The position numbers and the translations under genes were made by a program. The notes beneath the pieces are model-generated. The model saw only the letters and a program-made list of their open reading frames with translations. It did no database searches and was not told the DNA's origin. Shown here piece after piece: positions 4,540 to 8,373 of a DNA stretch of 23,769 nt. The DNA lies in IMG/VR virus record IMGVR_UViG_3300020169_000116, positions 1 through 23,769 of that record; one strand, given 5' to 3'. The stretch comes from a virus. Position 1 is the stretch's first letter; every line of letters starts with the position of its first letter.

Positions 4540-4947
4540 TTAGCGTAGTAGTTGCTTCCAGTTATTCTTATACTGTGTAAACTTGTTTTTATCGTTACCT
4601 AGGTTTAGGTGGACGCTATTTCCTTCTATAGCATCGAATGGAATAATAAAAAAGGTATCTATATACCAAATGTAAAGAGCGAAGTAGTCCACTTCTTTAG
4701 CGGTGTAATTCTTAAATACAGAATTTGGCCCGCTTACCTTTCGCTGAAGCATAGAGCTAAACGTTTTTTTAGCCCTCTTATCTTTGGAGGCATACTTAAC
4801 CTGGATCTTATAGAAGCTTTTACCGTTATCTATAACGCAGTCGTAAGGGTAACCCTCTACAGCTGGCGTAAGTACTCTTAAGTCTAAGCTTATAGCGTAA
4901 CTTATAAAGCGGTATTCTGCTAAAGCTCCTTTATTCCGGGTGTTCAT
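4540..4947 (-). CDS. PD-(D/E)XK family endonuclease-like protein
   Basis: The 135-residue product begins MNTRNKGALAEYRFISYAIS and shows the nuclease core E11, D36 in EGYPYDCVID and QVK (49-51). This is the pattern of small PD-(D/E)XK proteins related to archaeal-type resolvases and intron-associated nucleases. It sits between RusA and the replication protein, so a role in DNA repair or junction processing is likely. The Q-x-K variant of the catalytic motif is known in the superfamily. Exact substrate unknown. Confidence 0.7.
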   Translation of the reverse strand: MNTRNKGALAEYRFISYAISLDLRVLTPAVEGYPYDCVIDNGKSFYKIQVKYASKDKRAKKTFSSMLQRKVSGPNSVFKNYTAKEVDYFALYIWYIDTFFIIPFDAIEGNSVHLNLGNDKNKFTQYKNNWKQLLR

Positions 4948-5302
4948 CCGATAGCTCTATAGTTATTTCCGCTTTATCTTTTGGTATTTGCTCCGTCCAT
5001 ACCATAAGCAAGCGTCGAAAGTATTTAGGGCTGTCGTCCTTAATCCAGCCCAAGGTCTTAAGAGCATCGCTAGTAAATTTAGTAGCGATAATACTATTAT
5101 CAAGATCGTAACGGTAACGCACATAAGCAGTAACTCTAAAACTATTGTAAGGAGCTCCCGTATTGTAACCCAGTTGCTCTTTAATCGTTTCGAGTGCAGC
5201 GTCTTTAGCTTTCTTTCTTTTTGTCCAATGTGAGCCGGCATAAAAACTATTTAAGCTAGGTACCTTTCCTAGCGTTAGTACTATCTCTTTATTCTTCCTC
5301 AT
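4931..5302 (-). CDS. rusA: RusA-family Holliday junction resolvase
   Basis: The 123-residue enzyme cuts four-way DNA junctions during phage recombination and before packaging. RusA signatures are clear: VPSLNSFYAG near residue 14, the acidic motif YDLDNSIIATK with D66, D68 and K75, then SDALKTLGWIKDDS with D89/D90. These correspond to E. coli RusA D70, D72, K76 and D91. Length is as in the family (about 120). It overlaps the next gene by 17 bases, and the zinc-ribbon gene overlaps its start. Confidence 0.93.
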   Translation of the reverse strand: MRKNKEIVLTLGKVPSLNSFYAGSHWTKRKKAKDAALETIKEQLGYNTGAPYNSFRVTAYVRYRYDLDNSIIATKFTSDALKTLGWIKDDSPKYFRRLLMVWTEQIPKDKAEITIELSDEHPE

Positions 5303-5411
5303 CGCTGCAGTTACAGTCGTAGTAATCGGGGTCGGTAGACTCTCCGCACTTCTCGCAGGTCGTATCTATTCTATACTGGTATTCCTCCAGCTCTCTACTT
5401 AGGTAGTCCAT
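5289..5411 (-). CDS. Small zinc-ribbon-like protein (40 aa)
   Basis: The product has a helical N-terminus (MDYLSRELEEYQYRID), then TTCEKCGES and DCNCSDEEE. The CxxC and CxC pairs about 14 residues apart suggest a metal-binding ribbon. It overlaps the RusA start by 14 bases, consistent with translational coupling. No family is recognised. Confidence 0.5.
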   Translation of the reverse strand: MDYLSRELEEYQYRIDTTCEKCGESTDPDYYDCNCSDEEE

Positions 5412-5416
5412 AAGCT

Positions 5417-5497
5417 CTATTTATCTTTTTGCCAGTTGTATACTAGGTAGGCATTCCAGGCTATTAGTATAACTGCTATTACTATATTCTCAATCAT
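5417..5497 (-). CDS. Putative single-helix membrane micro-protein (26 aa)
   Basis: The product MIENIVIAVILIAWNAYLVY... is one hydrophobic helix with a short basic tail (NWQKDK). It overlaps the 29-aa frame and ends five bases before the 40-aa frame. Tiny membrane peptides are common in phages, but a chance frame cannot be excluded. Confidence 0.4.
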   Translation of the reverse strand: MIENIVIAVILIAWNAYLVYNWQKDK

Positions 5498-5579
5498 TCT
5501 CTAGACCGTTATCTTTAAGATCTCTTAAGCAAAGCTCTATAATTCCGTAGCTGCTCGTAGTACAGTTACACTCTTTCAT
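5490..5579 (-). CDS. Putative micro-protein with CNC motif (29 aa)
   Basis: The frame starts directly after leader copy 1 and reads MKECNCTTSSYGIIELCLRD..., with three cysteines. Its end overlaps the next small frame by eight bases. The leader is the main support. Function unknown. Confidence 0.45.
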   Translation of the reverse strand: MKECNCTTSSYGIIELCLRDLKDNGLEND

Positions 5580-5602
5580 CTCTCTTTTGTGTTAAAGGTT
5601 TC
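5580..5602 (-). promoter_or_regulatory. Repeated translation leader, copy 1
   Basis: GAAACCTTTAACACAAAA, then GAGAG and ATG 5579. This is the third member of the leader family. It lies in non-coding sequence, 24 bases beyond the stop of the 63-aa gene. Confidence 0.65.
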
Positions 5603-5626
5603 AGTTGTCAAGTAATTCTTTACAAC

Positions 5627-5818
5627 TCATTTTTTGAGATATTCATCCCATTGATTTTGAGCATCGCAGATTGCACCCATCCTTGTTTTTCCCCTACCTT
5701 GTATGGTAAACTTTGCATCCATACACTGCCAAGTGTCTGACCTCTGAAAGTAGTCTACTATCATTACTGCTCCATTGTATTTAAATGTGCTATAAGCACC
5801 CTCTGTTACATCATTCAT
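5627..5818 (-). CDS. Hypothetical small protein (63 aa)
   Basis: The product begins MNDVTEGAYSTFKYNGAVMIV and continues DYFQRSDTWQCMDAKFTIQGRGKTRMGAICDAQNQWDEYLKK: two or three beta strands followed by a helix. It starts at the conserved leader. Composition resembles the 66-aa gene before it rather than the rest of the genome. No family is recognised. Confidence 0.55.
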   Translation of the reverse strand: MNDVTEGAYSTFKYNGAVMIVDYFQRSDTWQCMDAKFTIQGRGKTRMGAICDAQNQWDEYLKK

Positions 5819-5841
5819 TTCTATTTTGTTTTAAAGGTTTC
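5819..5841 (-). promoter_or_regulatory. Repeated translation leader, copy 2
   Basis: GAAACCTTTAAAACAAAA, then TAGAA and ATG 5818. Here the leader also encodes the last residues and the stop codon of the upstream gene, in a reading frame different from that of copy 3. The conservation is therefore at nucleotide rather than protein level. Confidence 0.65.
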
Positions 5842-6021
5842 TACTACTGGTGCATAACTTTGTACTACTTCCCCTTTCAGCCAAACTGAACCATTAAACT
5901 CTTGGTGCATTACTTTGGGTTTCCAAAACTGCCACCAGCGAGGTGATGATTCAACTACAAAGGTTGTTTCTAATCTGCTCCATCCGTTTAAGGATTCTGT
6001 TACTTTGAATTGTGTTTTCAT
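5821..6021 (-). CDS. Hypothetical tryptophan-rich small protein (66 aa)
   Basis: The start at 6021 is chosen because the conserved leader ends directly before it. An in-frame ATG at 6057 would add 12 residues whose codons are the leader itself. The product begins MKTQFKVTESLNGWSRLET, has a striking SSPRWWQFWKPKVM segment and ends in VVETFKTK, whose codons form the leader of the next gene. Predicted mostly beta. Composition is unlike the NTA-rich neighbours. No family is recognised. Confidence 0.55.
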   Translation of the reverse strand: MKTQFKVTESLNGWSRLETTFVVESSPRWWQFWKPKVMHQEFNGSVWLKGEVVQSYAPVVETFKTK

Positions 6022-6043
6022 TTCTCTTTTTTTTAAAGGTTTC
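6022..6043 (-). promoter_or_regulatory. Repeated translation leader, copy 3
   Basis: The minus strand begins GAAACCTTTAA, continues with an A-rich stretch and ends AGAGAA directly before ATG 6021. It is nearly the same as leaders 5819-5841 and 5580-5602. Confidence 0.65.
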
Positions 6044-6059
6044 TTATTTGCGCCCATTA

Positions 6060-6161
6060 TTATAGGTGTGCTCCTATTTTTAATGGCTTGAACTTTTTCC
6101 CGAACTTTTCCCCGAACTTTTTAGTGGTCTGGGTTGCGCCTATTTTTATACGCTTCTGCAT
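6060..6161 (-). CDS. Possible small basic repeat peptide (33 aa)
   Basis: An ATG-initiated frame reads through the tandem 12-mers, giving the internal repeat KKFGEKFGKKFK flanked by RIKIGA and LKIGA. It ends two bases before the next ATG. The in-frame repeat and packing are suggestive, but short frames arise by chance in lysine-rich DNA. No family is recognised. Confidence 0.3.
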   Translation of the reverse strand: MQKRIKIGATQTTKKFGEKFGKKFKPLKIGAHL

Positions 6162-6195
6162 ACAAATTGGTGGATAAACCCATCTTTATATGCTT
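6073..6195. repeat. 17-bp and 12-bp repeats
   Basis: On the minus strand three related 17-mers of the form AAGCNNNTAAANATNGG lie at 6195-6179, 6155-6139 and 6089-6073. Directly before the third come tandem 12-mers: GGGGAAAAGTTC (6113-6102) and GGGAAAAAGTTC (6101-6090), after a partial AAAAAGTTC (6122-6114). Copies two and three of the 17-mer share a reading frame, so part of the repetition may be protein-coding. Confidence 0.65.
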
Positions 6196-6240
6196 AAACT
6201 CTTGTTAGTGGTGTAAATAAGCACCATTCAATCTACTTAT

Positions 6241-6291
6241 TGTAAGGTTATAGCCTTACATTGTTTATTTAAAAGTAAGGTTATAGCCTTA
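6241..6291. repeat. Two palindromic operator-like sites
   Basis: TGTAAGG-TTATAG-CCTTACA (6241-6260) is a 20-bp dyad with 7-bp arms. A second copy of the core GTAAGGTTATAGCCTTA lies at 6275-6291. The two cores start 33 bp apart, close to three helical turns, as expected for cooperative binding of a dimeric regulator. They sit in the only sizeable gap (6184-6338) of this small-gene cluster, in which I see no gene. Confidence 0.65.
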
Positions 6292-6317
6292 TTTGTATCA
6301 TTTAAGGCTTTTTGCTG

Positions 6318-6357
6318 TGAGGATTTGCAATTCGCGAATTAAGAAGCGTTATCCTCA
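6318..6357. repeat. Nested dyad symmetry at the end of the 105-aa gene
   Basis: TGAGGAT (6318-6324) and ATCCTCA (6351-6357) form the outer arms, and the perfect 12-bp palindrome AATTCGCGAATT (6329-6340) lies inside, covering the stop codon. On the minus strand there is no U-run after it, so a protein-binding site is as likely as a terminator. Confidence 0.55.
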
Positions 6358-6656
6358 TCTTTCCCGGCTCTATACTCGTCTACCTCAGCGCGGAGCATTG
6401 CAAGCTCTTCTAAGTCCATACCCAGGATAAGCTCTATATTACTTTGGATCTTAGTAAGCAGCTCCGGGTCTTCTTTGTCTAAGCTGTTTAGCGGGTTTCT
6501 TAGCGTGCGCTCTAGTAAGTCTTCTAGCTTGTTCATTAAGTACTTAAGCTGCAGCTTATATAAGCTCGTTCCTCTTAAGTTATCCATCTGCTCTAGCGTT
6601 GCCTGCATTAAAGCTACAAGCTTTACGCCTTCTTTGAATTTGTTGTATCTAACCAT
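6339..6656 (-). CDS. Hypothetical helical protein (105 aa)
   Basis: The product begins MVRYNKFKEGVKLVALMQATLEQMDNLRG and is predicted all-helical, with leucine-rich segments (LYKLQLKYLMNKLEDLLERTL, ELLTKIQSNIELILGMDLEELAML) and an acidic end (GKDEDNAS). The stop codon lies inside a 12-bp palindrome. No family is recognised. Confidence 0.6.
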   Translation of the reverse strand: MVRYNKFKEGVKLVALMQATLEQMDNLRGTSLYKLQLKYLMNKLEDLLERTLRNPLNSLDKEDPELLTKIQSNIELILGMDLEELAMLRAEVDEYRAGKDEDNAS

Positions 6657-6668
6657 TTTTTTTTACTG

Positions 6669-6875
6669 TTAAAAACGAAGCCAGCGGCTTCTGCGTTCAT
6701 ATTTTCTCACTAGCTGCCCTAGGTTCTCTAGGTGCTTATTCACCGGGTAGGTAAACTCGGTAGCGCTAGCTGCTACGACCGTGTTAATGATCTCCCAACG
6801 TATATCCGATAGGTAGCAGTTTACATACCTTAAATGGCGCCTTTTTCTTAGGTACTTCTTTATAGCTTTTTTCAT
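6669..6875 (-). CDS. Small basic hypothetical protein (68 aa)
   Basis: The product is rich in lysine and arginine at both ends (MKKAIKKYLRKRRHLRYV...RKYERRSRWLRF) around a central amphipathic helix. Its start overlaps the stop of the upstream gene (ATGA). The charge suggests nucleic-acid binding. No family is recognised. Confidence 0.55.
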   Translation of the reverse strand: MKKAIKKYLRKRRHLRYVNCYLSDIRWEIINTVVAASATEFTYPVNKHLENLGQLVRKYERRSRWLRF

Positions 6876-7593: not shown

Positions 7594-8373
7594 TTATAGT
7601 TCTCCCCGTATAATATAAGAGCTTAACGGTCTTCCCTCTATAAAGTACTCGCGGTAGATCTCGATAGCTCTAGCTACCTTCTCCTTTCCACTCTTTATAA
7701 ATTCCGGTGTAGTTGTAAATACTCCGACGTCGTAGCTGCTCTTATCTACTACAAGAAAAGTAAACTCTTCTAGACCGAAGAGATGCGTATAGATAGCCGC
7801 CTGGGCATCGTAGCCAAAAGAGTAAGCATTCCACTTAAACTTATGAATATCGGCTGTAGTCTTTAAGTCTACAATACGCGTTCCTTTATGTAGTATATCC
7901 GCTTTAGCTCTAAAGGGTAGGCCCATTATAGAACCTGCTACGGGTACCTCAGTAGCTGCTCCGTAGATCATCTCCCAAGCTTCGGGGCAGTCCTTTACCG
8001 CTCGCGCTACCTTCTTCGCTGTAGCGATCTCTATAGAGGTAAAGGTATTCTCTCCGCCAAACTCTAGCGCAGCGTCCTTATACGCTTTCGCTGTTCTGCT
8101 CTTTACGTCTATTACGTTGAGGGTCTCCTCCTTATGAGGCTCCAATAAAAGCAGGTGTATAAGCTTACCCTCTCTTAAGGCCTTGGTCTCTTGCTGCTGA
8201 TCCTTTAAGCTGGCTTCGTAAGCCTTGGGGCTCTGCAGTAGCTTCTTAAGGCTGGAGCTGCTTAGTGCTGCCTTACCTAGGTAGCCGTAGTAAAACTCGT
8301 CCTTAAGCATCTCGTCCAGGAGCTCGTTATAGTCCCAGCTTTGCCCGTCTAAGAGCTTTATTGTACGTGCCAT
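7594..8373 (-). CDS. RecE-like PD-(D/E)XK exonuclease
   Basis: The 259-residue protein matches the RecE/exodeoxyribonuclease VIII-like nuclease pattern: LSSSSLKKLLQSPKAYE (37-53), a GKLIH motif (69-73), E142, the catalytic D159, then VDLKTT with D169 and K171, and YDAQAAIY (188-195) near the end of the nuclease core. Such enzymes degrade one strand from double-strand ends to give 3' single strands for annealing. An SSB-like gene lies nearby, but no RecT/Erf/Rad52 annealase is seen in the window. The GC-stem element follows its stop. Confidence 0.88.
   Translation of the reverse strand: MARTIKLLDGQSWDYNELLDEMLKDEFYYGYLGKAALSSSSLKKLLQSPKAYEASLKDQQQETKALREGKLIHLLLLEPHKEETLNVIDVKSRTAKAYKDAALEFGGENTFTSIEIATAKKVARAVKDCPEAWEMIYGAATEVPVAGSIMGLPFRAKADILHKGTRIVDLKTTADIHKFKWNAYSFGYDAQAAIYTHLFGLEEFTFLVVDKSSYDVGVFTTTPEFIKSGKEKVARAIEIYREYFIEGRPLSSYIIRGEL

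Follow-up and report, generated by a model that had tools for sequence, protein, structure and literature searches.

A Leader Sequence at the Stop/Start Junctions of Small Viral Genes as a Probable Seam for Cassette Exchange

The Locus and Its Three Leaders

The DNA considered here (the window) comprises the 23,769 nucleotides (nt) of IMG/VR virus record IMGVR_UViG_3300020169_000116, a linear viral record of 23.8 kb in which almost every predicted gene lies on the minus strand. This strand harbors three copies of a short sequence, GAAACCTTTAAxAxAAAxAGARATG, hereafter the leader, each terminating at the start codon of a short open reading frame (ORF). The same leader was encountered in many other viral contigs, where it borders small, mobile, single-gene cassettes and has crossovers inside.

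Read along the minus strand, leader copy 3 (6043 to 6022; GAAACCTTTAAAAAAAAGAGAA, 22 nt, with one A fewer in its A run than the consensus) adjoins the ATG at 6021 of cassette gene A (5821..6021), an ORFan of 66 amino acids (aa). The last codons of gene A (ETFKTK*) are supplied by leader copy 2 (5841 to 5819; GAAACCTTTAAAACAAAATAGAA, 23 nt), which holds the gene A stop TAG 2 nt ahead of the ATG at 5818. The latter opens cassette gene B (5627..5818), an ORFan of 63 aa. Leader copy 1 (5602 to 5580; GAAACCTTTAACACAAAAGAGAG, 23 nt) adjoins the ATG at 5579 of cassette gene C (5490..5579), which encodes 29 aa beginning with MKECNCTTSSYG. The repeats, their positions and the lack of relationship between the three proteins following them were reported in an initial annotation of the window and are confirmed here. 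The same is true for the difference in reading frames: the gene upstream translates copy 2 as ...ETFKTK*, and copy 3 lies in another frame of an upstream ATG.

The degenerate 26-mer describing the repeat had no match in 100 dinucleotide shuffles of the window; hence, a chance origin was rejected. No leader copies beyond the three were found in a scan of the window, and related contigs carry 1 to 20 each. Gene A gave no match in Pfam, PHROG or PADLOC, and the distribution of its substitutions among relatives over the three codon positions (294:157:645) is that of a real gene. The DNA of gene C is 98.9% identical in locus L076 and 97.1% identical in locus L014.

Distribution of the Leader

The search of IMG/VR with the 66-aa protein of gene A returned 34 loci. 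The view of the initial annotation would have been refuted by relatives sharing the genes and not the upstream sequence. The relatives retrieved did not refute it: the leader (with at most 4 mismatches) preceded the 66-aa gene in 30 of the 32 testable loci and followed it in 28 of 29, at a constant distance of 203 nt from the ATG of the gene. The gene after the second leader differs in most of these loci. Since this set was fetched by the protein and not by the leader, the conservation of the leader in it is not circular.

Searches with the leader itself yielded at least 119 viral stretches for the exact degenerate pattern and at least 120 for a second variant. In total, 194 viral contigs from 146 metagenomes were read, most of the leader-bearing records being incomplete; they provided 407 non-redundant leader contexts preceding at least 164 protein families. 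This wide occurrence in other viral contigs led to rejection of the idea that the repeat is private to one phage. A host-derived element was rejected as well, because a scan of 84,980 prokaryote genomes gave only three matches, all within contigs of metagenome-assembled genomes: two of these contigs bear phage-type genes (e.g., baseplate wedge, helicase) and the third aligns with the leader-bearing phage contig G008.

Among 50,697 cultured phage records and 72,556 plasmids, no leader matches above the chance level were detected. Flavobacterium phage FPSV-D35 (L159, MK764450.1) possesses one look-alike, TTTTTAACACCAAATAAAAATGA, immediately before an annotated start; it has 3 mismatches, and the reversed control gave none that good. 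As a cultured-phage counterpart of the leader, this sequence is suggestive only. The ORF following it belongs to a region (L159 900-1520) where a different non-coding repeat of ~110 nt stands ahead of small ORFs, possibly representing an analogous joint in a cultured phage.

Leader Anatomy and Stop/Start Geometry

The consensus of the 407 contexts is CCTTTAA[C/A]AC[C/A]AAAGAGA[A/G]ATGA, often with GAAA in front; the base following the ATG is A in 98% of them. A TAA triplet at -15..-13 is in frame with the ATG, making an ORF start further upstream impossible, and another frame contains either a TGA overlapping the start codon (as ATGA) or a TAG at -5. In 258 of the 407 contexts, an upstream ORF (25 aa or longer) stopped at one of three positions: -4 (180 contexts), +12 (66 contexts) or +2 (12 contexts). 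In the -4 and +2 contexts, the leader codes for the C-terminal tail ETF[N/K]TK(E[K/R])* of otherwise unrelated proteins. However, conservation is equal in coding and non-coding leader copies, so the nucleotides, not the tail, are kept; the C-terminal tag (ETFNTKEK*) was rejected as the main role of the leader on these grounds.

No inverted repeats were revealed in window positions 5300-6700 and no raised pairing in the leader; the pairing probability is reduced around its start codon. The leader logo displays no second motif upstream. The other genes of the leader-bearing phages exhibit only an A-rich region at -14..-11, and tetramers resembling the Shine-Dalgarno (SD) sequence are not in excess before phage genes (8.5% vs. 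9.3% in shuffles); both features agree with published data on Flavobacterium (PMC6847099). A genome setting lacking SD sites, for which the initial annotation had suggested a special ribosome-binding leader, is thus borne out. The constancy of the stop/start arrangement points to a probable role of the leader in translation. Its own start context comprises A at -6 and -13, G at -3 in >90% of the cases and mostly C at -12.

Exchange at the Leader

The behavior of homology across the leader was followed in two classes of pairs. In 335 pairs with the same upstream flank and a different downstream gene, identity amounted to 0.8-1.0 up to -13 and was near background from -12. In 366 pairs with the same gene and a different upstream flank, identity remained at background to about -22 and was mostly 0.9-1.0 from +4. 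These opposite shifts indicate that homology switches inside the leader. In line with this, shared blocks begin at -23..-21 in 525 of 1356 cases and most commonly end at +4 (414), with the 66-aa family being over-represented; 66% of the 5' and 67% of the 3' block edges fall at a leader, vs. 14% for shifted blocks.

Single units were found to be shared by contigs whose DNA is otherwise unrelated. Contigs G007 and G008 (30 and 35 kb) have exactly one leader-gene-leader unit in common (99.6% over 232 nt). Such units are also common to G019 (212 kb) and G039 (297 kb), with 100% identity over 296 nt, and to G011 (31 kb) and G019, with 93% over 294 nt; 20 kb each of G019 and G039 entered the comparison. 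The window itself can be compared with an empty site for cassette B: L014 carries genes A and C with a single leader in between, as opposed to A-leader-B-leader-C in the window. The array aligns at its positions 68-306 and 509-831 with L014 9-249 and 212-532, respectively, the overlap being confined to the leader. The suggestion of the initial annotation that the repeats relate to cassette insertion is thus strongly supported: each exchangeable cassette holds a single gene and is bordered by leaders, within which homology is lost. An active seam describes them better than an insertion scar.

These observations also bear on the notion that the leader has no function beyond translation start or regulation and is conserved for this reason before co-regulated genes, which are swapped by other means respecting gene boundaries. 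Such an element would be expected to show the zero spacing to the start codon, the nearly constant ATGA, the lowered pairing near the start and the equal conservation of coding and non-coding copies described above. Still, it is an unlikely explanation: flank-linked bases switch within the leader, exact units are common to unrelated genomes and the window differs from L014 by exactly one of them. Furthermore, in the 66-aa family, identity between relatives is 0.76 in the leader vs. 0.91 at third codon positions; being more variable than third positions, the leader is not simply inherited with its gene.

Swaps at the leader were also recorded within one metagenome (five contig pairs). Of the 46 contigs with a length of 10 kb or more, 14 carry a leader no farther than 150 bp from an end, vs. 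0.9 expected. The distance between leader and contig end has its peak at 120-147 nt, about the length of a usual assembly k-mer. Such an excess is expected if the sampled populations vary and the assembly graph branches at the seam. It would likewise fit misjoins of the metagenome assembler at the 23-bp repeat, since short k-mer rounds could misjoin there, and a few junctions may have arisen in this way. As an explanation of the swaps in general, misjoining is barely credible. Identical junctions were recovered from independent metagenomes (window/L004 over 831 nt; also L012/L013, L006/L011 and L022/L024), unrelated long contigs hold intact arrays with correct reading frames and misjoining cannot account for leaders ahead of 164 protein families.

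Candidate Recombination Enzymes

The window encodes a PD-(D/E)XK exonuclease of the RecE/exonuclease VIII type (7594..8373, minus strand; phrog_412 2e-40; PF12684 2.5e-26) and a RusA-like Holliday junction resolvase (4931..5302, minus strand; phrog_1682 8e-11). When 16 leader-bearing contigs were compared, the exonuclease VIII-like family was the commonest non-cassette gene (9 of 16). The window exonuclease is a candidate source of single-strand annealing recombination, the occurrence in 9 of 16 contigs being only suggestive. Exchange would then probably proceed through homologous recombination by phage enzymes of the RecE type, and less likely through a site-specific recombinase.

Arrays of single-gene units, each with one site in one orientation and mobile across unrelated phages of 30-300 kb, are also what would be expected if the leader were the attachment site of a dedicated site-specific recombinase in an integron-like phage cassette system. 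This appears improbable given the lack of inverted repeats in the region and of raised pairing in the leader. In addition, no single protein was common to all 16 contigs compared, many of them partial, and no search aimed at integrases was made. A dedicated phage cassette-exchange system, in which a recombinase of the phage or of its host would recognise the shared seam, is rather doubtful. If true, dedicated exchange would mean a common pool of small accessory genes for unrelated phages of one host group, i.e., an integron-like arrangement without integrons.

Arrays, Cassette Genes and Carrier Phages

The leaders occur in one-directional arrays of small ORFan cassettes. The biggest array encountered is that of the 64-kb contig G021 (63.6 kb, L213-L216) with 20 leader genes, 15 of them in a single run; a 67-kb contig carries 13 by a looser count. 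G021 is distinguished by T4-type head genes, and the closest matches come from records of uncultured phages 462-735 kb in size. The genes following leaders are short (median 63 aa), and the excess of third-position substitutions marks them as real genes. The 387 downstream proteins form 164 families arranged in shuffled order; the successors of one family, 42 cases in all, belong to 28 different families. Comparison of the cassette proteins with Pfam, PHROGs and PADLOC gave weak or no matches, except for an uncharacterised PHROG family (1e-14) and one match at 2e-5. Cassette family 0 (MKTPMQELI..., e.g., L221 7999-8653) numbers 82 members at 64 loci; a single array often holds more than one of them, and their length varies.

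Marker genes show the carriers to be unlike phages. A tape measure protein and Prim-Pol characterise the window together with its relatives, and T4-type head genes G021; one carrier has a baseplate wedge protein and terminase phrog_6681, another has a DNA polymerase, and there are carrier contigs of 212 and 297 kb. Among the window proteins used in tblastn searches for clues to the host, only the primase gave named phages (of Cellulophaga, Flavobacterium and Olleya, and also of Arthrobacter); a tail protein had no matches.

Upstream of the first cassette of the window, an array head (6048..6155, minus strand) contains three TATAAAAATAGGCGCA-like repeats (at about 6134-6150, 6069-6085 and 6048-6064). 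The arrays of the phages with the 66-aa gene start with 1 to 3 copies of TATAAAAATAGGCGCA, and 32 of the 34 sense matches of TAAAANTAGGCGCA precede a leader ATG by at most 120 nt, with no antisense matches. The array-head repeat is ~20 nt long (TATAAAA[A/G]TAGGCGCA) and is present in one to several copies in window 6048-6155, L005-L008, L012, L021, L122, L173 and others. It is a candidate promoter or operator.

This separate conserved repeat, resembling a transcription signal, bears on two further roles conceivable for the leader itself, as the operator of a RegA-like translational repressor (a phage RNA-binding protein) or as a phage promoter from which leaderless transcripts arise. The unbroken conservation of the leader up to the start codon and its restriction to accessory genes would suit either role. 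Both are quite improbable in view of the array-head repeat, the frequent overlap of the leader with the upstream coding region (at -4 spacing) and the lack of a regulator shared by the 16 contigs compared. The binding site for a phage RNA-binding protein proposed in the initial annotation likewise did not emerge from that comparison, where no protein occurred in all contigs.

Other small elements were noticed around the window array. Between gene B and leader copy 1 (window 5600-5630), there is a nine-codon ORF, MSCKELLDN*, whose ATG overlaps the gene B stop; a similar stretch was found in L172, L049 and L018. The ORF may be what is left of a cassette that was deleted. In window 6242-6305, immediately ahead of the array head, there is a pair of 31-nt near-repeats of the GTAAGGTTATAGCCTTAC type with a spacing of 33 nt. 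GTAAGG elements resembling them occur in relatives.

A Probable Joint and Seam

Overall, the leader is probably a stop/start translation joint of 23-27 bp and at the same time a recombination seam whose short homology allows cassettes to be shuffled. At the RNA level, it would terminate the upstream gene and offer a start site that is rich in A, has little structure and ends in ATGA. Ribosomes that have completed one cassette could thereby restart at the ATG of the leader and translate the next. At the DNA level, the identical sequence before each cassette would serve as the short homology for crossover by phage recombination. Cassettes could then be inserted, deleted and swapped among unrelated phages, leaving both neighbors intact.

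Several points weigh against this interpretation. Translational coupling across the leader is a prediction from sequence. Most loci were fetched by the leader pattern, and the invariance at fixed positions is partly by construction, although the protein-fetched set is free of this effect. The variants at -12, -9 and -1 are weakly linked to either flank; hence, the crossover point is not sharply placed. The leader lacks the A at -3 favored in Flavobacterium and is thus not simply an optimal start. Finally, the hosts, probably Bacteroidetes lacking SD sites, are suggested by phage relatives and by the start context.

Comparison with Known Systems

No description of this leader was found in the literature, subscription papers being mostly outside the coverage of the search. 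The mobile T4-type promoter-early-stem-loop (PeSL) elements are short sequences between accessory phage genes and were proposed to aid shuffling; neither a stem-loop nor a promoter motif was seen within the leader, in contrast to them.

The nearest known counterparts of the leader are the start-associated sequences of cluster K mycobacteriophages and the boundary sequences of phages. The former (SAS/ESAS) are 13 bp long, contain AGGAG, occur in intergenic gaps of >50 bp at 3-7 bp before the start and are confined to one cluster (Pope et al. 2011, PMC3203893). Like SAS, the leader is a short asymmetric repeat just upstream of the start codons of many unrelated non-structural phage genes; it has one orientation, is nearly absent from bacterial genomes and can include the upstream stop codon. 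Unlike SAS, it is 23-27 bp long, ends exactly at ATGA, is common to unrelated phages and has crossovers inside. Moreover, its consensus has no SD core (AGGAG), in phages whose genes show no SD excess, and, instead of being >50 bp from the upstream gene, it usually includes the stop of that gene, the positions -4, +2 and +12 together accounting for 258 of the 407 contexts.

Short conserved boundary (linker) sequences between phage modules were proposed as a focus of homologous recombination creating mosaics, yet such sequences cannot be found at most phage junctions (PMC3029335). Like them, the leader is short, conserved and placed where non-homologous genes meet, and it is there that homology breaks off. 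It differs in that a single sequence marks the cassette junctions and is common to phages of different genome types.

The leader arrays work like integron arrays: promoterless single-gene cassettes with one joint each are shuffled between genomes. In contrast to attC, there are no attC-like inverted repeats, and the leader joint precedes the gene and overlaps both reading frames. As for a counterpart of IntI, no protein was present in all 16 contigs compared, several of them partial, and integrases were not searched for.

A Kozak-like start context without SD, with A at -3, -6, -12 and -13, was described in Flavobacterium johnsoniae (Baez et al. 2019, PMC6847099). The leader shares the lack of SD, the A-rich, weakly structured character and A at -13 and -6. 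However, it is a strict 23-nt sequence rather than a statistical preference, and positions -3 and -12 are taken by G and mostly C, respectively, where the Flavobacterium context has A.

Implications for Phage Mosaicism

Phage mosaicism at gene boundaries is an old question; here, one sequence marks the junctions and serves as both stop and start. Since the leader is common to phage contigs of about 30 to 297 kb, the transfer of cassettes can be traced at base resolution and is testable in the laboratory. The leader may also become a part for joining genes in organisms without SD sites, and it provides a search handle for hundreds of small uncharacterised phage genes.
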